Of a stretch of 64,000 nucleotides of DNA, positions 34,724-44,676 are shown in pieces. Source of the stretch: Rhodoflexus caldus (GTDB taxonomy: Bacteria > Bacteroidota > Bacteroidia > Cytophagales > Thermoflexibacteraceae); contig NZ_JAJPRF010000001.1 in NCBI RefSeq assembly GCF_021206925.1, forward strand, positions 434,001 to 498,000, written 5' to 3'. The stretch's first letter is position 1. Every line of letters starts with the position of its first letter. Both the position numbers and the translations under genes were made by a program. The notes beneath the pieces were generated by a model. It ran no database searches and had not been told where the DNA came from. It saw only the letters and a program-made list of their open reading frames with translations.

Positions 34724-35344
34724 TTAAGCCAACAGCAGCAGCCCTGCATAGCAAGTACCAAACCCCACCACAGAGCCGACCAGCAATTCACCGGGCGTGT
34801 GTGCTTTCAGCGCAAGTCTGGCCGAAAGAATAACGCCCCAAACCAGTACGGCAGCCATCAGCGGATAGAGAAAATCCGAGTCGGGGAAGGTTTGCTGCAA
34901 ACTTATCAGCGCACCCGCTACTCCACTGATGCCTGTTGCATGAGCACTGATTTTATAAAAAAACGTAGTCAGCAATACTATAAAAACCGCTATGCAAATA
35001 GCAACCATCATTGCCGGCAGCAATATAACCTGCGGCAATTTGGTGAAAAAGTAAAATGCCGCTCCGCCATAAGACACGAGGCTAATCAGAAAAGGCAAAA
35101 AACGGTCTTTTCTTTCGGGTAGTGTCAGGTCTTTAATGATGCCGATTTGGTGCAAAAACACCAGTGCCATTGCCGGCATAAGAAAAGTCGTAATAAATAC
35201 CAACCCCAACAGCATCAGCCTGAGCGAATCGGTGTATTGTAATAACTCGGCAGGGCCATTAAAAAGTACCAATGCGGAAAGATAAGTACCCATTAGCGAA
35301 GGGTGCATCACTACCGAAACAAATTGCGCAAGCGGTTTGCTCAT
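34724..35344 (-). CDS. PAP2-superfamily membrane phosphatase-like protein
   Basis: 206 residues, about six membrane helices. The C-terminal half carries remnants of the PAP2 catalytic motifs: KISAHATGISGVAG (SxxH-like) and SARLALKAHTPGELLVGSVV (R..H....E). The first part of the phosphatase signature (KxxxxxxRP) is weak: TLPERKDRF. It may act on lipid phosphates such as undecaprenyl pyrophosphate or be a non-catalytic relative. Its start overlaps the rpoN stop by 4 bp, so it is co-expressed with sigma-54. Confidence 0.75.
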   Translation of the reverse strand: MSKPLAQFVSVVMHPSLMGTYLSALVLFNGPAELLQYTDSLRLMLLGLVFITTFLMPAMALVFLHQIGIIKDLTLPERKDRFLPFLISLVSYGGAAFYFFTKLPQVILLPAMMVAICIAVFIVLLTTFFYKISAHATGISGVAGALISLQQTFPDSDFLYPLMAAVLVWGVILSARLALKAHTPGELLVGSVVGFGTCYAGLLLLA

Positions 35345-36852
35345 AGCTCTTTGCGCAGGCGCGCCACAGGAATATTCATCTGTTCTCTGTATTTGGCAAC
35401 GGTACGTCGCGCAATGTTGTAGCCCCTTTCGTTCAACATTTTTTCTAATTTATCGTCCGAATAAGGTTTACGCTTGTTTTCGTTGTCTATAATTTCTTTA
35501 AGGATAAACTTCACCTCTTTGCTGCTGACATCTTCCCCAGAGTCGGTGCTGATGCTTTCCGAGAAAAAGTGTTTGAGCGGGAAAACGCCAAACTCTGTTT
35601 GTACCGATTTGCTGTTGGCCACGCGCGAAACCGTAGAAATATCCATCCCGATTTTTTGTGCAATATCTTTGAGAATCATGGGTTTCAACTTGCTTTCATC
35701 GCCTTCTCTGAAATACTCCTGCTGATACTCCACAATGGCGTTCATGGTTTTCAACAGCGTCTGCTGACGTTGTTTAATGGCATCAATAAACCATTTGGCA
35801 GCATCCAGTTTTTGTTTAAGAAACATCACGGCCTGCTTGAGTGTTTTATCTTTTTTGCTGCCTTTTTCGTAAGAATCAAGCATCTCCATATAGGAGCGGC
35901 TGATGCGCAAGTCGGGTGCGTTGCGGGCATTCAGGGTCAGGTGAAAGCGCCCCGCATCATCGGTACGCAAAATAAAATCGGGAGTAATGTAATGGTTGCG
36001 CGAAAAGTCGCTGGTGCTTTCCCCGGGTTTGGGGTTCAGGTGCACAATCACATCCACCGCTTCTTTGAGTTGATCTTCGGTGATATCTAATCGCTTTTCA
36101 ATTTTGTGGTAATGCTTCTTGATAAATTCATCGAAGCACAGCGAGATAATGCGCAGCGCATTGCGAACGTTGGGGTCGCGTTGGTCTTTGCGCTTCAACT
36201 GCAATTCCAAACATTCCTGCAAATTGCGGGCAGCAATACCCGGCGGCTCAAAGGTCTGAATTTGGTGCAGGATTCTCTCCACCTCTGCCTCGTCGGTCTC
36301 AATGTTTTGTGTAAACACAAGGTCATTGACAATGCCCTGCAACTCGCGGCGGATGTATCCTTCACTGTCTATGTTGCCTATCAGTTGTACCCCGATGGCA
36401 TATTCGCGCTCGTCTAAGTCTAAATATCCGAGTTGAGACATCAGCGAGTCGGTCAATGAATCGCTGGTAGAAAGAGGCATTTCGCGGTCTTCCTCGCTGC
36501 CCGGCCCGTCGCCTTGCATTTTGTAGCCTGCATCGTCATTGTCGGGCATGTAGTCCGACATGCTGAAATCCATGCTGTCCAAACTCTCGTTTTCTTCGTG
36601 TCCATATTCTTCGTCTATGCCTTCGCCCAAATCATCCACTTCGTCGTAGTCATCGTCAGCCCCGCTTTCCTCTTTTTCTTTGGCATAATCATCCTCGTCG
36701 CTGCGCCCCTCTTCTAATGCAGGGTTTTCTGCCAATTCTTCCTCAATACGCGACTGCAACTCGGCAGTAGGCACCTGCAAAAGTTTGATAAACTGAATCT
36801 GCTGGGGCGACAGTTTCTGCGTAAGCGACTGAATCTGTGTTATCTTCTGCAT
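35341..36852 (-). CDS. rpoN: RNA polymerase sigma-54 factor
   Basis: 503 residues. The N-terminal activator-interacting region is Gln/Leu rich (LTQKLSPQQIQFIKLLQVPT), followed by a very acidic insert (residues 48-125), the core-binding region, the DNA helix-turn-helix GMDISTVSRVANSKSVQTEF and the RpoN box ARRTVAKYREQMNI. Sigma-54 reads -24/-12 promoters and needs an AAA+ activator. None is encoded in this window. The stop overlaps the PAP2 gene start. Confidence 0.96.
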   Translation of the reverse strand: MQKITQIQSLTQKLSPQQIQFIKLLQVPTAELQSRIEEELAENPALEEGRSDEDDYAKEKEESGADDDYDEVDDLGEGIDEEYGHEENESLDSMDFSMSDYMPDNDDAGYKMQGDGPGSEEDREMPLSTSDSLTDSLMSQLGYLDLDEREYAIGVQLIGNIDSEGYIRRELQGIVNDLVFTQNIETDEAEVERILHQIQTFEPPGIAARNLQECLELQLKRKDQRDPNVRNALRIISLCFDEFIKKHYHKIEKRLDITEDQLKEAVDVIVHLNPKPGESTSDFSRNHYITPDFILRTDDAGRFHLTLNARNAPDLRISRSYMEMLDSYEKGSKKDKTLKQAVMFLKQKLDAAKWFIDAIKQRQQTLLKTMNAIVEYQQEYFREGDESKLKPMILKDIAQKIGMDISTVSRVANSKSVQTEFGVFPLKHFFSESISTDSGEDVSSKEVKFILKEIIDNENKRKPYSDDKLEKMLNERGYNIARRTVAKYREQMNIPVARLRKEL

Positions 36853-38225: not shown

Positions 38226-39410
38226 TTACTCGGCTGCCGGCTCGGCATCGTTGCCCACAGCGTTTTTGCCGCCAAAGTTGAACAAGAGCGAAAAGCGGAG
38301 CGAATCGGCAAGCGGCATGTTTTGGCGCATCGGAATCAGGTAGGCAAAGTTGATATTCAAGGTGTTGAATTTCAGACCTGCGCCTACGGTTGCAAACTTG
38401 CGCCCGCCTTTGGTGTCCGACTCGTGGAAATAGCCGCCACGCAGTGCAAAAATGTCGTTGTACCAATACTCTGTTCCAAAAGCAAGCATAATTTCCTGTA
38501 TTTCTTCGCTGAAAGGCGCATCGGTAAATGAGCCAAAAATACCCGACACAAGCGAACGGTTCGGGATAGTCAGCCTGCCGTTTTGCACCACCGGCGAAGG
38601 CACCATCAGCTTGTTGATGTCAAAGGCCAGCGTCAATTTGTTGTATTCGTCAAACTCGCCTGTTACGGCAGTTCCCAAACGCAGGTTGGTAGGAATAAAA
38701 TCGCGGCTTTCGGGGTCGTTGTAGGTCAGTTTCAGACCTACGTTGGAAATATTACCGCCAAATGCCACCGTTGCCGGAATGTTGCCTAATGTTGTTTGAG
38801 ATTGGTAATAAACACCCAAATCAACGGCAACAGTATTGCCGGGTTGTGCATTTACATTGGTTCCCGCATTGCTGATATTGCCCGCCAAGTTGGAGTGAAT
38901 GAAACGAAAGGCAGGTGCAATACTCAAATTGCTGGAAAGTTTACGGGCATACGTAATATCAACTGCTATTTCACGGGGGTTAAACTCCTGCAAAGGATTG
39001 CCCACCAAGTCGGTAAATTGCATACTTCCCAAATTCATGTAGCGGATAGAGCCGCCAATGGTTTCCAGTTTGCTTAACCGTTTGTAGCCCGACAGATAGC
39101 TCAACCACATATCGTTTACCAAGCGCATCAACCATGGGTTGTAGGACAAGCTAAATCCGCTGGCTTGCTCAATAAATGCCAACTTTGCCGGATTCCAATG
39201 GATAGCGTTTGCATCAGGGGAAATTGCAGCACCTACATCGCCCATTGCTCCCGAACGGGAATCGGGTGCAATTGTCAGAAACGGCACGGCAACGGGAATC
39301 ACGCGGCGGTTTTGGTCTTGCCCCAATACGCTCCCTGAGTTTTGTGCTGACAACCAAAAGGGTAGAAAACCAAAACAGAGTACTGCAAGTGCTCTTTTGT
39401 TGAAAAACAT
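38226..39410 (-). CDS. porV: Type IX secretion outer membrane protein PorV
   Basis: 394 residues from ATG 39410, which gives the signal peptide MFFNKRALAVLCFGFLPFWL. The mature chain has the PorV/LptO opening RVIPVAVPFLTIAPDSRSGA, GDVGAAISPDANAIHWNPAK and a beta-barrel of FadL type ending in LRFSLLFNFGG. PorV collects cargo from the Sov translocon and hands it to the PorU sortase. An upstream in-frame start would precede the signal peptide by 47 residues and is unlikely. Downstream of porU on the same strand, 147 bp apart. Confidence 0.93.
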   Translation of the reverse strand: MFFNKRALAVLCFGFLPFWLSAQNSGSVLGQDQNRRVIPVAVPFLTIAPDSRSGAMGDVGAAISPDANAIHWNPAKLAFIEQASGFSLSYNPWLMRLVNDMWLSYLSGYKRLSKLETIGGSIRYMNLGSMQFTDLVGNPLQEFNPREIAVDITYARKLSSNLSIAPAFRFIHSNLAGNISNAGTNVNAQPGNTVAVDLGVYYQSQTTLGNIPATVAFGGNISNVGLKLTYNDPESRDFIPTNLRLGTAVTGEFDEYNKLTLAFDINKLMVPSPVVQNGRLTIPNRSLVSGIFGSFTDAPFSEEIQEIMLAFGTEYWYNDIFALRGGYFHESDTKGGRKFATVGAGLKFNTLNINFAYLIPMRQNMPLADSLRFSLLFNFGGKNAVGNDAEPAAE

Positions 39411-39557
39411 AAAGTTTGAAATTAAGAGAAATGTAACTTTACCAGAATAAAATGTGGGTAAAGAATAGCGGCATAGGCAAAAGGCTTGCGGATGAATTTT
39501 AATAAAAGTTAAAATATCAGCAATATTAATTTCTGGAAGCCAAAAAAGCAAAACGGC

Positions 39558-42500
39558 TTACCTCATTACGGCAAGTCTGCCGGTAAATGCGGTTTGCTCT
39601 TTTTCGGCGGTTAATGTCTCTACCGTAATCCGATACATGTAGATGCCTTTGGCAAGCGTGCGCACCGTTGCGTCAAACCCTTCCCAAATCAGTTCTACCT
39701 GCTCATTTCTTACATTGTACAGGTCTGTTTGTTGTTGCATGATTTGCCTGCCTGTCAATTCATAAACGGCAACCGTTACCTTAAAATCCGCCCCGATGCG
39801 GTTGTGCGTAAATTGCCAACGCACTTGGTCAGTTGCTGCCGTTACGGGGTTCGGATATACTTTGGTATTGTCCAAACGCAGCGGGTCTTCCTCCACCACA
39901 AAGCGAATTTCAGCTTCGGCGGGGTTATTGTGCACGTCCCAAGCCTTTACCCGCAGGGTGTGTTCTCCCTTGGCGAGGTCGTGCAGCGGAAACCGCAGGC
40001 TGCCGCGCCGCGAATCGTCCAAGGCAGCGCGATAAAATCTGTTCAACAGGAAAACTTGCTGCCCGTCCAGCGTAGCGGTAATGTCTTGACCAATACCCAT
40101 ACTGCTGATATTGATACCTGTATCATCCTGCAAAAAAGCCAGTAACTCTGTATCAGACCGCGTGCGCCCACCGTTTTGAAACTGCTCGTTGTCCATAAAC
40201 AACCTGATTTGCGGCGGTGTATTATCCGATACAACCGTTGTTGCAGTGCCTCCCACGGTGATATTCCATGCACCGACAGCGTCGGTATTGCGGGCGGCAT
40301 CCATCGCATAGGCACTAATGCGCCCCTGCCCGAAGGCATAGTTGATGTTTTTAGGCATGGTGAACTGCACGGCAAACCGCCCCTGACGCACGCTCACTTC
40401 TCCGCGGAACAGTGCAGCGGGTCTGTCGCGATAAACGGCAGGCGCATCCTCATCGCCAAGCGTTTGCAACTCAAATTCCTTTTCCAGCACTTCTATTTGC
40501 AGCGTACCGTTAAAATTCGCATCTAACATGCCCTGCCTTCTGATTTCGCCTGCAAGTGTAACATTGGCCAGCGCTTTGAGCGTATCGGGAGCATTTGTCA
40601 GCACAATTTCTTGGGCAGGATAGGCAAGGCGCATGGAGGGGTCGCCCAGCAGCGCAAAGTTCCGATTGACTACGCCATTCACGCTGTTGTTTTTGGTTTG
40701 TCGCTGAATGTCGCCAAGCCGTGGCATCGTGCCGTTCACGGGTGTAAACGCCGCATTGTAAAATGCTTCATTGAGGATAAAATTCGTACTCGAGAAAACA
40801 GGTCGCGTAGTGGTAACTAAGGCAATCGCCCCTCCGCGTGGATTGAGCAATGCAAATTCTGCCCCCGAAGTAAGAAAAGGGTTGTCATAACGGCCAAATT
40901 CGCAGGTAGCCGTTATCATCAGCGGCAAACGGTCGTAGTTTGTCCAGTTGTTAATTTGTACCACATCCAACACTGCCTCCGATGCCCAGCCCGTTTCCGA
41001 ACCGTGTCCGGTATAGTTTACCATCAGCGCGCCATCGGCAATTTGTTGGTTGAGCGCATCGCGTGCTGCCGGCGAGCGCCGCCCCGTAGGTGTGGCCACT
41101 TGGGGGAAGGCATCAATGTAAACTTTCTGTACCTGAAAATTGCGGCCGCGCCGCTGTGCCAACGACGAAAGTTGTTCGCTGTCTGCCAAATGGATATTGA
41201 AATCGCCGTCATCGGCTACGAACACAAGGCGACTGCGCCAGTTGCCCAATGCGGCGGCAGTGGTGTAATGTATCAGTTTATCAACCATTGCGGCTGCCTC
41301 GCGGGCTGTTTTGGCAGGCAGGCGACCCACGCCTATTTCCATGTTATACACGCTGCCGAAATCTTCTTCCCATTCGCCCTCGTGCTCATCAAAAAAACCG
41401 AAGTAATCGTCTGACGAAAAACTGAAAATAGGGTGCAGCGACTCATACGACTCGTACACGGGGACAAAGTTCGTATTGTTCGGGTTTCGGTCTTTGTAGT
41501 CATAAGAGGCATCGCCAAACAGCAGCAGGTATTTCAGGCGGCTTTGCGGTTGCAGGTAGCGCAGTCGGGCAAAGTCGCGGATGGCGGTCAGGTCTTTTCG
41601 CCCCGAGGCAAACTCATTGTATATCTGCGTGGTAGTTACTACTTCCACCGCCAGCCCGTCGTTCTGTTGACGAAATGCCGCCAGCCGTTGCGCTTCCGGC
41701 AGAAACTGGGGGGCTGTTACTATCAGCAAGTCGGGGTTAGTGACAGTACCGCGCAGGTTTTGCCGCGCTGATACGCCCGTAAAACGCGGCTCCGGCAGAC
41801 CTTCCATGCGAAAAAGGGCGTACTCGCGCAGTTGCAACTGGGGATTGGCAACACTAAAAATTGCCTCGTTGCCCGCATTGCGCAATGCAATTGTTTGCGG
41901 GGCGGCAAAGTTGGTAACATCCCAAACTTGTAAGTCGGCCGTGGCATTGGCTATGCGAAAAGTGCTTGCCCTTTGCTCCGCCGCTGCAAACGACCGAAAA
42001 AAAGTGGCGTTGTCATACAGTTGCAGGCGGCGCTGAAAATTAAGCGACACGTAGTCCAAATGCCCAAAAGCTGCGTTGTTTCCTGCCCTGTCGTAGCGAA
42101 TACGTACTGCGAATTCATTGTTGGCAGGCGTGGCGGCAGGTATGATATTAAAAGTTGCTTCGGCAATAGTTCCGCGGCGCGCATAGGTAGAAATAGGTAC
42201 GGCACCTATGCGACGGCTGCCCAGTTCTTGCCCGTTCAGTTGCCAGATAAACGAGGTTTCCGTGGCAGATTGCGCCATCACGGCCGACTGCACTTGTACC
42301 GCTGTGCCGCTTACCCACCCCGTGGCAGGAAAGCGCAGCGTATGTTCGGTCAGGAAGTCAAAACGTTCGCCAAACCAACGCCGCCCCGAATTGACGATGT
42401 TAAACTCGTCTTTTTCGTAGTACAGAAATTCCTGAAACTCTGTAATGGCATTACCCGATTCGGGGGCAGGGCTTTGTTGGCTGATGCGTCGGCCGTTAAC

Positions 42501-42929
42501 GCTGCCGATAATAAGGAAACAATAATTCAGGTCGTCGTAAAGGTTTTTTTCATGTTGCAGCAGGCGGCGGTTGCGGTCGGCAGTAATCTTGTCCGCTCCC
42601 TGCGCATAAAACAGAATGAAGTCTTCTGCATCAAATCTGCCGTCCTGTTCGCCCTGTACGTAGATAGCAAGCTCGGTTAATGGGGAGCGTGGCGCACTGT
42701 TGGCCTGTGGTAACATGCCGCCCTCGCTACTGAAAATCTGAATCCGTCGCGGGTCTATCTCTGCGGCATTGATACCCATAGACGTTAAAAATGCCCGATT
42801 GATGCGATAGATTCCGGTTTTAGGAATTGCCATGCGATAGCTGTTGCCACCGGCAAGAGGCTGTGCGTTTGCACAGAAGCCCGCAACGGCAACAACAAGA
42901 ACGATGAACAGCAAAAAAAATCGGTTCAT
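39558..42929 (-). CDS. porU: Type IX secretion sortase PorU
   Basis: 1123 residues. Signal peptide MNRFFLLFIVLVVAVAGFCA; a beta-rich N-terminal region to about residue 410; a gingipain-like (C25) domain with LLFGDASYDYKDRNPNN, His642 in NYTGHGSETGW and Cys676 in ITATCEFGRYDNP as the catalytic pair; then Ig-like segments and a C-terminal domain (KVYPNPVTAATDQVRWQF, VYELTGRQIM, KGIYMYRI) like type A sorting domains. PorU cuts off the sorting domains of exported proteins and attaches lipopolysaccharide. Upstream DNA holds the tandem terminator units described separately. Confidence 0.95.
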   Translation of the reverse strand: MNRFFLLFIVLVVAVAGFCANAQPLAGGNSYRMAIPKTGIYRINRAFLTSMGINAAEIDPRRIQIFSSEGGMLPQANSAPRSPLTELAIYVQGEQDGRFDAEDFILFYAQGADKITADRNRRLLQHEKNLYDDLNYCFLIIGSVNGRRISQQSPAPESGNAITEFQEFLYYEKDEFNIVNSGRRWFGERFDFLTEHTLRFPATGWVSGTAVQVQSAVMAQSATETSFIWQLNGQELGSRRIGAVPISTYARRGTIAEATFNIIPAATPANNEFAVRIRYDRAGNNAAFGHLDYVSLNFQRRLQLYDNATFFRSFAAAEQRASTFRIANATADLQVWDVTNFAAPQTIALRNAGNEAIFSVANPQLQLREYALFRMEGLPEPRFTGVSARQNLRGTVTNPDLLIVTAPQFLPEAQRLAAFRQQNDGLAVEVVTTTQIYNEFASGRKDLTAIRDFARLRYLQPQSRLKYLLLFGDASYDYKDRNPNNTNFVPVYESYESLHPIFSFSSDDYFGFFDEHEGEWEEDFGSVYNMEIGVGRLPAKTAREAAAMVDKLIHYTTAAALGNWRSRLVFVADDGDFNIHLADSEQLSSLAQRRGRNFQVQKVYIDAFPQVATPTGRRSPAARDALNQQIADGALMVNYTGHGSETGWASEAVLDVVQINNWTNYDRLPLMITATCEFGRYDNPFLTSGAEFALLNPRGGAIALVTTTRPVFSSTNFILNEAFYNAAFTPVNGTMPRLGDIQRQTKNNSVNGVVNRNFALLGDPSMRLAYPAQEIVLTNAPDTLKALANVTLAGEIRRQGMLDANFNGTLQIEVLEKEFELQTLGDEDAPAVYRDRPAALFRGEVSVRQGRFAVQFTMPKNINYAFGQGRISAYAMDAARNTDAVGAWNITVGGTATTVVSDNTPPQIRLFMDNEQFQNGGRTRSDTELLAFLQDDTGINISSMGIGQDITATLDGQQVFLLNRFYRAALDDSRRGSLRFPLHDLAKGEHTLRVKAWDVHNNPAEAEIRFVVEEDPLRLDNTKVYPNPVTAATDQVRWQFTHNRIGADFKVTVAVYELTGRQIMQQQTDLYNVRNEQVELIWEGFDATVRTLAKGIYMYRITVETLTAEKEQTAFTGRLAVMR

Positions 42930-42978
42930 GGATGAACATAGCTTGGTTTGTTCAAATTTACACCGATAATGTCAAGAT

Positions 42979-43013
42979 AAAAAAAGAACCTGCTCTCAGG
43001 GAGGGCAGGCTCT
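42979..43013 (-). terminator. Terminator of tandem unit copy 1
   Basis: Minus strand AGAGCCTGC (43013-43005) pairs with GCAGGTTCT (42993-42985) with one G-U pair, then TTTTTTT. Loop CCTCCCTGAGA. Confidence 0.8.
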
Positions 43014-43019
43014 ACAGCT

Positions 43020-43070
43020 TTAACAATTAAACCAAATAATCCTTAAAAAATGTCGAATCTTGTTCTTCAA
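43020..43070 (-). CDS. Possible 16-residue leader peptide, copy 1
   Basis: TTG start, peptide MKNKIRHFLRIIWFNC, stop TAA six bases before the terminator stem. Copy 2 encodes the same peptide with Gln instead of Arg at position 6. Preceded by GAGAGAG. Position right before a terminator is what an attenuating leader would look like, but coding is not proven. Confidence 0.25.
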   Translation of the reverse strand: MKNKIRHFLRIIWFNC

Positions 43071-43082
43071 CTCTCTCTGGTG

Positions 43083-43090
43083 CAAATGTA
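43083..43090 (-). promoter_or_regulatory. -7 element of tandem unit copy 1
   Basis: Minus strand TACATTTG, exact TAnnTTTG match; in copy 2 the same position reads TACCTTCG (one mismatch). Confidence 0.4.
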
Positions 43091-43120
43091 GACAATCCTA
43101 CAATACGATTTTCAGCTATT

Positions 43121-43191
43121 CGACGAAACGGGCGTTTTATCCGATGAACCTTCTAAGAAAAATCGATGAAACAGGCATTTTATCCGATTTC
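43121..43191. repeat. Short repeats CGATGAAACAGGC-N-TTTTATCCGAT, first pair
   Basis: Related ~25-bp motifs start at 43121 (CGACGAAACGGGC, then GTTTTATCCGAT) and 43164 (CGATGAAACAGGC, then ATTTTATCCGAT). A second pair starts at 43456 and 43497 in copy 2. Spacing is 43 and 41 bp, about four helical turns. Possible protein-binding sites upstream of the tandem units. Confidence 0.6.
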
Positions 43192-43313
43192 GATAAAAGG
43201 TGCATTTACCCTAAGCCCCGTTTTGTGCCTGCATCCTCAACAAATTTGGTGCTGTATAAGCCGTGTTTCGTCGTTGTCCAATATTGATTTTGTACAAGTT
43301 GATACGCGAGCAT

Positions 43314-43348
43314 AAAAAAAGAGCCTGCTCTCAGGGAGGGCAGGCTCT
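43314..43348 (-). terminator. Terminator of tandem unit copy 2
   Basis: Minus strand AGAGCCTGC (43348-43340) pairs perfectly with GCAGGCTCT (43328-43320), followed by a T run to 43314. Confidence 0.85.
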
Positions 43349-43354
43349 ACAGCT

Positions 43355-43405
43355 TTAACAATTAAACCAAATAATCCTTAAAAAATGTTGAATCTTGTTC
43401 TTCAA
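43355..43405 (-). CDS. Possible 16-residue leader peptide, copy 2
   Basis: TTG start, peptide MKNKIQHFLRIIWFNC, stop TAA just before the terminator; same as copy 1 except residue 6. Coding status unproven. Confidence 0.25.
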   Translation of the reverse strand: MKNKIQHFLRIIWFNC

Positions 43406-43536
43406 CTCTCTCTGGTGCGAAGGTAAGCAATCCAACAATACAATTTTTAACTATTCGATGAAACAGGCGATTTTTCCGACGAAGTCCTCAAAAAGCCGAT
43501 AAAACGGCCATTTTCCCGATTTTTATCGGGGATGAA

Positions 43537-44676
43537 TTATTTCAAAAGTCCGCGGGAAATTACAATTTTCTGAATCTCGGAAGTGCCCTCATAAATTTGG
43601 GTAATCTTCGCATCGCGCATCAGACGCTCTACGTGGAACTCCTTCACGTAGCCGTAGCCGCCGTGGATTTGTACCGCTTCTGTGGTAACATCCATTGCTA
43701 CCTGCGAAGCAAAGAGTTTCGCCATTGCACTTGCATGTGCATAGTCGGCGTGCTCATCTTTCAGATAAGCCGCTTTGAGGCAAAGCAGGCGTGCCGCTTC
43801 TATCTGAGTAGCCATATCGGCGAGCTTAAAGGCAATCGCCTGATGTTTATGAATTTCCTGACCAAAGGCTTTGCGCTCTTTGGAGTATTTCAGTGCCAAT
43901 TCGTAAGCACCGGAAGCAATGCCCAATGCTTGTGCGGCAATACCGATACGCCCGCCGTTGAGTGTTTCCATGGCAAAAGTGAACCCGAACCCGTCTTCGC
44001 CGATGCGGTTTGCTTTGGGCACTTTTACGTCGGTAAACATCAGCGAGTGGGTATCTGAACCGCGGATGCCGAGTTTGTTCTCTTTTTTGCCAACCACAAA
44101 ACCGGGCGTATCGCGCTCCACAATCAGCGCATTAATCCCTTTGTGTCTTTTTTCGGGATAAGTTTGTGCAATCACAATGTAAACAGAGGCGCTGTTGCCG
44201 TTGGTAATCCAGTTTTTAGTACCGTTGAGCAGGTAATAGTCGCCCATGTCAATGGCTGTGGTGCGCTGGCTGGTTGCATCGCTGCCCGCTTCAGGCTCTG
44301 AAAGGCAAAACGCACCGATGATTTCTCCTTTTGCCAGACGCGGAAGGTACTTGCGCTTTTGCTCTTCGGTACCGAAAGTTTCCAACCCCCAGCAAACAAG
44401 CGAATTGTTTACCGACATACATACCGAAGCGGAAGCATCTACTTTGGAAATTTCTTCCATAGCCAGCACATACGAAATCGTATCCATGCCGCTGCCCCCG
44501 TATTCGGGCGACACCATCATACCCATAAAACCTAACTCTCCCATTTTTTTGATTTGCTCGGCAGGGAAAATCTGGTGCTCATCGCGTTCAATTACACCCG
44601 GCAGCAATTCGGTTTGTGCAAACTCACGTGCAGCCTGCCGCACAGCCAGGTGCTCTTCTGTCAGTTGAAAATTCAT
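43537..44676 (-). CDS. Acyl-CoA dehydrogenase
   Basis: 379 residues, the standard length of the short-chain acyl-CoA dehydrogenase family. Motifs: AFCLSEPEAGSDATSQRTTA (FAD/substrate), GTKNWITNGNSA, FGQEIHKHQAIAFKLADMA, and the C-terminal QIHGGYGYVKEFHVERLMRD with KITQIYEGTSEIQKIVISR, where the catalytic Glu lies in YEGTSE. It oxidises acyl-CoA in fatty-acid or branched-chain amino-acid breakdown and feeds the electron-transfer flavoprotein. -7 element at 44714-44721. Confidence 0.95.
   Translation of the reverse strand: MNFQLTEEHLAVRQAAREFAQTELLPGVIERDEHQIFPAEQIKKMGELGFMGMMVSPEYGGSGMDTISYVLAMEEISKVDASASVCMSVNNSLVCWGLETFGTEEQKRKYLPRLAKGEIIGAFCLSEPEAGSDATSQRTTAIDMGDYYLLNGTKNWITNGNSASVYIVIAQTYPEKRHKGINALIVERDTPGFVVGKKENKLGIRGSDTHSLMFTDVKVPKANRIGEDGFGFTFAMETLNGGRIGIAAQALGIASGAYELALKYSKERKAFGQEIHKHQAIAFKLADMATQIEAARLLCLKAAYLKDEHADYAHASAMAKLFASQVAMDVTTEAVQIHGGYGYVKEFHVERLMRDAKITQIYEGTSEIQKIVISRGLLK

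Follow-up and report, generated by a model that had tools for sequence, protein, structure and literature searches.

The two near-identical units that precede porU on the minus strand of the window (the whole 64-kb stretch of DNA analyzed) are probably tandem paralogues of a predicted ~100-nt trans-acting small RNA (sRNA), whose family is conserved in part of the Cytophagales and would be served by a dedicated activator and act independently of Hfq. The family is apparently an undescribed multicopy bacterial sRNA family. The sequence supports the reading of each copy as a complete transcription unit, in which a predicted 5′ stem-loop is followed by a U-rich core under strong conservation (UUAUUUGGUUUAAUUGUU) and by an intrinsic terminator. 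Copies with their own promoter and terminator, spread over several loci and combining a conserved core with drifting flanks, show the pattern of a trans-acting sRNA family.

An earlier note on this DNA had described a duplication with a 335-bp period holding two ~100-bp units, each with a -7-like element, a small stem and a strong terminator. The duplication is real, consisting in the 64-kb window of a 172-nt direct repeat with a spacing of 335 bp and an ungapped identity of 91%, and all of the named parts were seen. Read along the minus strand, each copy comprises direct repeats spaced by 21 bp, a -7 box, a small 5′ stem, a 35-nt core and a strong terminator; the direct repeats upstream of each -7 box are absent from the earlier note. 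The features of the locus are as follows.

39558..42929, minus strand: porU, type IX secretion sortase, a neighbour outside the sRNA (NF033707, 1311.5 bits, cut-off 420).
42953..42960, minus strand: porU's own -7 box, TAAATTTG, past the sRNA terminator (same place in 4/4 genus genomes, by eye).
42978..43077, minus strand: sRNA copy 1 (porU-proximal), predicted ~100-nt transcript with -7 box, 5′ stem, core and terminator (99/101 positions equal to copy 2; kept in 4/4 genus genomes).
42978..43013, minus strand: intrinsic terminator of copy 1, stem 42985-43013 with the U run after it (fold z -5.2; family covariation).
43017..43051, minus strand: conserved core of copy 1, AUUUUUUAAGGAUUAUUUGGUUUAAUUGUUAAAGC (alignments A2 and A4).
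43052..43071, minus strand: 5′ stem-loop of copy 1, GUUGAA/UUCGAC (folding).
43083..43090, minus strand: -7 box of copy 1, TACATTTG, 37 bp past the last direct repeat.
43120..43148, minus strand: direct-repeat pair of copy 1, TTNRYCGR with 21-bp spacing; extra units at 43163-43170 and 43190-43197 (motif search).
43313..43412, minus strand: sRNA copy 2, predicted ~100-nt transcript with the same parts as copy 1 (covariance-model score 99.2 bits).
43313..43348, minus strand: intrinsic terminator of copy 2, stem 43320-43348 with the U run after it (fold z -5.1; family covariation).
43352..43386, minus strand: conserved core of copy 2 (alignments A2 and A4).
43387..43406, minus strand: 5′ stem-loop of copy 2, GUUGAA/UUCAAC (folding).
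43418..43425, minus strand: -7 box of copy 2, TACCTTCG, 37 bp past the last direct repeat.
43455..43483, minus strand: direct-repeat pair of copy 2, 21-bp spacing; extra unit at 43496-43503 (motif search).
43537..44676, minus strand: acyl-CoA dehydrogenase, the upstream neighbour (Pfam).

We take the -7 boxes of both copies to be of the Bacteroidota TAnnTTTG type, which was also seen in other family copies. Neither terminator stem was equalled by any of 200 shuffles, and the 5′ stem-loop varies inside the genus by a one-sided A-U to G-U change only. The two predicted transcripts are equal at 99 of 101 positions (42978-43078 against the copy 335 bp on); over 42985-43085, where two or three differing bases had been claimed, 98 of 101 are equal. 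Identity is 40/49 in the promoter stretch and 17/21 in the adjoining flank, and the DNA past the unit agrees ungapped at 43/163 and 14/49 positions, about as expected by chance, so that the flanks have indeed diverged. A gapped alignment of the 163-bp flank scored -17 against 200 shuffles with a mean of -35.6 and a best of -17; a trace of likeness remains there, and most of the DNA outside the unit has decayed. In its own genome, the 129-bp unit is found full-length at these 2 places only, with 5 further matches of 14-35 bp, and copy 2 is the genome's best match to the covariance model.

The unit lies between the acyl-CoA dehydrogenase gene and porU in all four genomes of the genus (the genes were profile-tested in the window and recognised by sequence in the others). 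The tandem pair is present in the window's genome (G000, 335 bp apart) and in G003 (333 bp apart), with a single copy in G001 and G002; the pair therefore predates the split between G000 and G003. That the units stand in tandem is what one would expect of a recent neutral duplication or a functionless repeat, a reading that we regard as extremely unlikely, because the distribution over G001, G002 and G003 shows that the pair did not arise recently in this genome, the transcribed part alone retains high identity, and the terminator pairing covaries. The proposal of a duplicated small RNA under selection has thus held up, the transcribed part being kept in 4/4 genus genomes while core and terminator recur in paralogues across the order; an absence of conservation beyond a recent duplication, which would have spoken against it, is contradicted by the same four genomes and by the tandem pair of G003.

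The family extends well beyond this locus. The exact core 19-mer occurs in 20 stretches of the named genome collection, of which seven (L029, L030, L035, L036, L038, L046 and L048) were taken as chance matches and the other 13 contain the core and a terminator, the terminator of L037 being cut off at the end of its stretch. Among the carriers are Flexithrix dorotheae and a Flammeovirgaceae MAG, each with three loci other than that of porU. Four sRNAs (L032, L037, L043 and L045) are found on MAG contigs labelled Thalassobius and Thalassovita, and one of them adjoins a PorU-like gene. Thalassobius and Thalassovita are alphaproteobacteria; since contigs apparently identical to these fall in the Cytophagales in the genome search, the labels look wrong.

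When the order was searched with covariance models built from 15 copies (R1) and 41 copies (R2), matches were obtained in 43 of 291 genomes at E<=0.01 and in 59 of 291 at E<=3e-4, respectively, these E-values being rough owing to a shortened calibration. After reading of the sequences, 58 copies in 34 genomes were accepted, up to four per genome, with four in Flexithrix dorotheae (DSM 6795); the covariance search that the earlier note had proposed thus revealed a family in the order. The accepted genomes comprise 11 of the 13 in the window's family (f1), 14 of f18, 2 of f2 and 7 of f22. Besides the 34 accepted, the 59 R2 genomes include G122, G145 and G209, which are unread and belong to a genus of accepted ones, and 18 more that are uncounted; G019, G127, G186 and G191 were read and not accepted. 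Matches read and dropped before the count were G011b, G011c, G019a-c, G127a, G088a, G197e, G134b, G186, G191 and G013b. Two genuine copies, L043 (G203a) and L047 (G192c), stand outside the 58 for having too little upstream DNA. Conservation of the core among the matches is partly built in, as the model selects for the core; the promoter features lie outside the model. In 395 genomes of the class, R2 matched 129 at E<=0.01, and among the 29 loci read from this search (3 from the order itself) none had more than 16 of the 21 type A core letters. Those without the core look like ordinary terminators in AT-rich DNA, and as no member was recognised outside the Cytophagales in the loci read, we claim the family for this order only.

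The copies fall into four types. Type A (32 copies and 4 variants), which includes the window's two units, carries UUAUUUGGUUUAAUUGUUAA. Type B is present once in each of 11 f1 genomes (11 copies) and carries GGUUGAUAUGUUUUAAUUGUUGUAGC. In type C (4 copies, f18) the sequence is UUGGUUUAAUUGU, behind another hairpin or leader, and in type D (7 copies, f22) it is GUUUGUUUAUGUUGUUUAAUUGUU. The stretch UUUAAUUGU before the terminator is common to nearly all copies, the deviants being G006a, G006b, G029b and G203c. Among paralogues of distant genera the core is nearly invariant over ~20 nt and the remainder drifts. Neighbouring genes vary among the 30 of 58 copies examined (functions by eye), and include atpG together with a protein-transferase-like gene, and moaC, aconitase-like and epimerase-like genes. 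The type D copies L242, L244, L245 and L247 of f22 (4/7 examined) lie beside a dipeptidyl-peptidase-like (S9) gene.

The window's own genome also contains a diverged type B paralogue (G000:C6:175121-175193, plus strand; locus L079, 4122-4194), with a sigma-54-like TGGCAT-N5-TTTGG element. Upstream of this element are TGTCCG-N4-CGGACA and TGTTGCAAC motifs, possibly enhancer sites, which are also present in G003 and partly in G001. A fourth, weak R2 match in this genome (C12:85916-85990, E 0.004) was left out of the accepted copies.

The terminator drifts in sequence across the family with its pairing kept. In alignment A4, 96.1% of the terminator cells are paired as against 68.2 in shuffles, 164 cells are changed on both sides as against 46.8, and the covariation score is 0.857 as against 0.277; 0 of 500 shuffles reached the observed count of double-change cells or the observed score. 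Double changes affect 11 of the 13 pairs, which 136 of 500 shuffles also attained and which is therefore not distinctive alone. When the partner was slid by 1-3 columns, pairing fell to 32-58%. The other parts of the predicted folds are less uniform: on average, only about half of the core is left unpaired, some family copies have a clear 5′ stem and others have none, and the core hairpin is unchanged in most copies and broken in some. A 15-codon TTG-started frame runs through the genus copies (by eye), as if the unit were a tiny protein-coding gene. We give this reading almost no credence, because in the copies of Flexithrix this frame lacks a start and has a stop upstream, the length of the core shifts by single bases among copies, and third-position drift is absent (by eye).

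Upstream of type A copies we found a regular promoter layout. The motif TTNRYCGR (consensus TTNATCGAA) occurs 63 times in 32 sequences, compared with 2.5 in shuffles, and forms 26 pairs at exactly 21 bp, compared with none in 300 shuffles; the reverse strand of the same sequences has 5 motifs and 0 pairs, and no motif was found upstream of types B, C and D. In 23 of the 28 copies that bear repeats, the -7 box follows the last repeat at 37, 38 or 58 bp (shuffles: mean 1.2, maximum 5); a -7 box needed at least 5 of 6 letters, and 58 bp applies where one repeat is degenerate. These shuffles overstate the contrast and are a lenient control, as motif and offsets were picked by eye on the very sequences tested and the copies are related. 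Five of the 28 have no good -7 box where one is expected, and 4 of the 32 type A copies have no exact repeat. The -7 box precedes the start of the modelled part by a variable 9 to 81 nt. Across the four genus genomes the repeat-pair pattern is hardly enriched, with 36 matches against 26 for the reversed pattern. Among 30 such loci examined, the four with a good, rightly placed -7 box are all sRNA promoters, and the layout may accordingly be dedicated to this RNA.

Types B and D have a different promoter element. A sigma-54-like TGGCAY-N5-TTG box precedes 7/7 type D and 6/11 type B copies, compared with 0/4 of type C and 0/32 of type A (0/36 with the variants), against a background of 27 occurrences in 1.05 Mb, or 0.005 expected per 200 nt. 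Because the -12 part of type B in the window's genus reads TTTGG instead of TTGC, use of sigma-54 is less certain there.

Between the end of the lower unit and the start codon of porU there are 48 nt (the earlier note had given ~49 nt), and porV directly follows porU in the window (38226-39551, minus strand), the two forming a compact type IX secretion pair. A position this close on the same strand, together with the presence of porU after 8 of the 58 accepted copies, would suit a premature-termination leader that attenuates porU, the other function that the earlier note had offered. We consider it very unlikely: the conserved -7 box TAAATTTG stands between the terminator and the porU start in 4/4 genus genomes, and a gene that keeps its own -7 box after the terminator is hardly controlled by attenuation. 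Moreover, a search for short PorU motifs was negative in the sequence examined near 50 of the 58 copies, for some of which there is little downstream DNA. A conserved position near porU, also suggested earlier, therefore applies to part of the family, namely the six copies of the four genus genomes plus G058c and G203b. The last two belong to two genomes of another family, with porU recognised by motif, downstream and in the same orientation, which indicates that the linkage is old. Nor is porU a conserved target, since the short complement in its leader is absent from G001 and G002; in a duplex scan of 55 window reading frames porU ranked 7th, which we do not count as evidence.

To look for targets, we searched 17 genomes for the 12-nt core complement AAACCAAATAAT followed within 25 nt by ATG. 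The pattern is not enriched as such: its 61 matches, which include 9 sRNA genes, compare with 43 for the reversed pattern. Among the 48 distinct sites left, seven have a CC extension and are perfect complements of 14-21 nt, where ~2.0 would be expected from a CC frequency of 4.2%, a comparison made post hoc. Four of these seven precede frames of 129-346 aa, including an RlpA-like and a lipoprotein-like gene (by eye), and two (L198 and L262) have no long frame after them. The seventh and longest target-like site, L192 (G156:C221:582-603, plus strand), matches the complement of the type A core perfectly over 21 nt and overlaps the start region of a 43-aa frame. These longer complements at start codons lend suggestive support to pairing and do not amount to a test. 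In the genus, the complement 14-mer with 1 mismatch gave 13 matches, of which 6 are sRNA genes and two pairs are a terminator-like palindrome beside a tRNA.

As a single anecdote, a 12-nt core complement lies just before the rpoN start codon of G171 (L202; G171:C1:635633-635654, minus strand). The window has its own rpoN (sigma-54) at 35341-36852 on the minus strand, about 6 kb from the sRNA pair. The start region of that gene is without the 12-nt complement seen in G171.

Hfq exceeded the cut-off in none of the 291 order genomes, with 2 weak sub-cut-off matches, neither in an accepted carrier, and 5 of 14 control genomes positive. CsrA was found in 0/4 genus genomes and 1/20 carriers (G203), with 3 of 14 control genomes positive, and RRM_1 (PF00076) in 0/4 genus genomes and 9/20 carriers, all of f18. 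These counts bear on a reading in which the RNA is a protein-binding decoy or cofactor, its core and U-rich 3′ end binding an RNA-binding protein that the copies titrate as CsrB-type RNAs do CsrA. A core near-invariant over ~20 nt in distant genera amid drifting sequence, the large number of copies and the lack of overall enrichment of 12-nt pairing sites would all fit such a decoy. Yet CsrA is absent from 19 of the 20 carriers examined and RRM_1 from 11 of 20, AGGA motifs are absent from type B and D cores (by eye), and a few long complements do lie at start codons. CsrB-type decoys carry repeated binding sites, whereas each RNA here has one core, and on balance we find this reading unlikely.

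For the trans-acting sRNA that we favor, the following mechanism can be envisaged. An activator would bind two or three direct repeats of TTNATCGAA, 21 bp apart and with the last 37 bp before the -7 box, and binding would turn on the type A copies together. Through its core, the released RNA would pair close to the start codons of several mRNAs and lower their translation without Hfq, CsrA or, in the genus, an RRM-1 protein, and having several copies would increase both dose and speed. In types B and D the same 3′ module would stand under sigma-54-like promoters, so that one output module answers different signals. We also entertain, as a long shot, that the 3′ module (UUUAAUUGUU with the terminator) is the docking site of an RNA chaperone replacing Hfq in these Cytophagales, with the direct-repeat regulator and sigma-54 activators feeding several signals into one RNA system.

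A core-conserved multicopy family in genomes without detectable Hfq offers a handle on base-pairing RNA, or on a new RNA-binding protein, in this branch of the Bacteroidota. With a promoter layout this rigid, the upstream regulator can be found, and the alternation of direct-repeat and sigma-54-like promoters would clearly exemplify the rewiring of a single RNA output to different inputs.

The Rfam search that the earlier note had suggested gave no family match. Against Rfam 15 at E<=10, no model exceeded its gathering cut-off with the window copies (the best, PyrR, reached 23.7 against 54, and the GibS model 20.5 bits against a cut-off of 115, E 2.4), and 19 further loci returned only a tRNA. 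In the open-licence literature we found no paper on regulatory RNA of the Cytophagales, including this family, its promoter layout or its promoter switching. The Qrr sRNAs of Vibrio comprise several ~100-nt copies with one conserved core, sigma-54 promoters and dependence on Hfq. The present family resembles them in having several ~100-nt copies with one core, and sigma-54-like promoters in types B and D; it differs in that no Hfq was detected, type A has TAnnTTTG boxes with direct repeats, and no sequence relation was found in Rfam.

Rfp18 of Flavobacterium psychrophilum is a conserved sRNA needed for precise protease expression, and the same paper also describes a sigma-54 regulon (PMC9723704). 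The likeness lies in both being conserved Bacteroidota sRNAs; no member of the present family was recognised in the loci read outside the Cytophagales. LytTR-activated promoters have 9-bp direct repeats mostly with a 12-bp gap (a 21-bp period) just upstream of the core promoter (PMC6193735). The 26 exact pairs found here share that period and their place upstream of a promoter; compared by eye, their consensus TTNATCGAA seems not to fit the mostly ACCNNTTAN-like repeats of that source.

The nearest described kind is the FopS/GibS family, without significant sequence relation to ours. FopS/GibS of Bacteroides pairs close to the start codon of SusC-type mRNAs, which it represses, and is associated with the RRM-1 protein RbpB (PMC11697453). 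Like the present RNAs, these are multicopy Bacteroidota sRNAs, mostly intergenic, which have a core in common and an intrinsic terminator (PMC11697453). According to the same source, the FopS seed lies in a single-stranded 5′ part and its promoters are canonical sigma-ABfr promoters (PMC11697453), whereas in the present RNAs a 5′ stem comes first and the core lies next to the terminator, and a direct-repeat promoter array precedes the unit in a genus without an RRM-1 protein.
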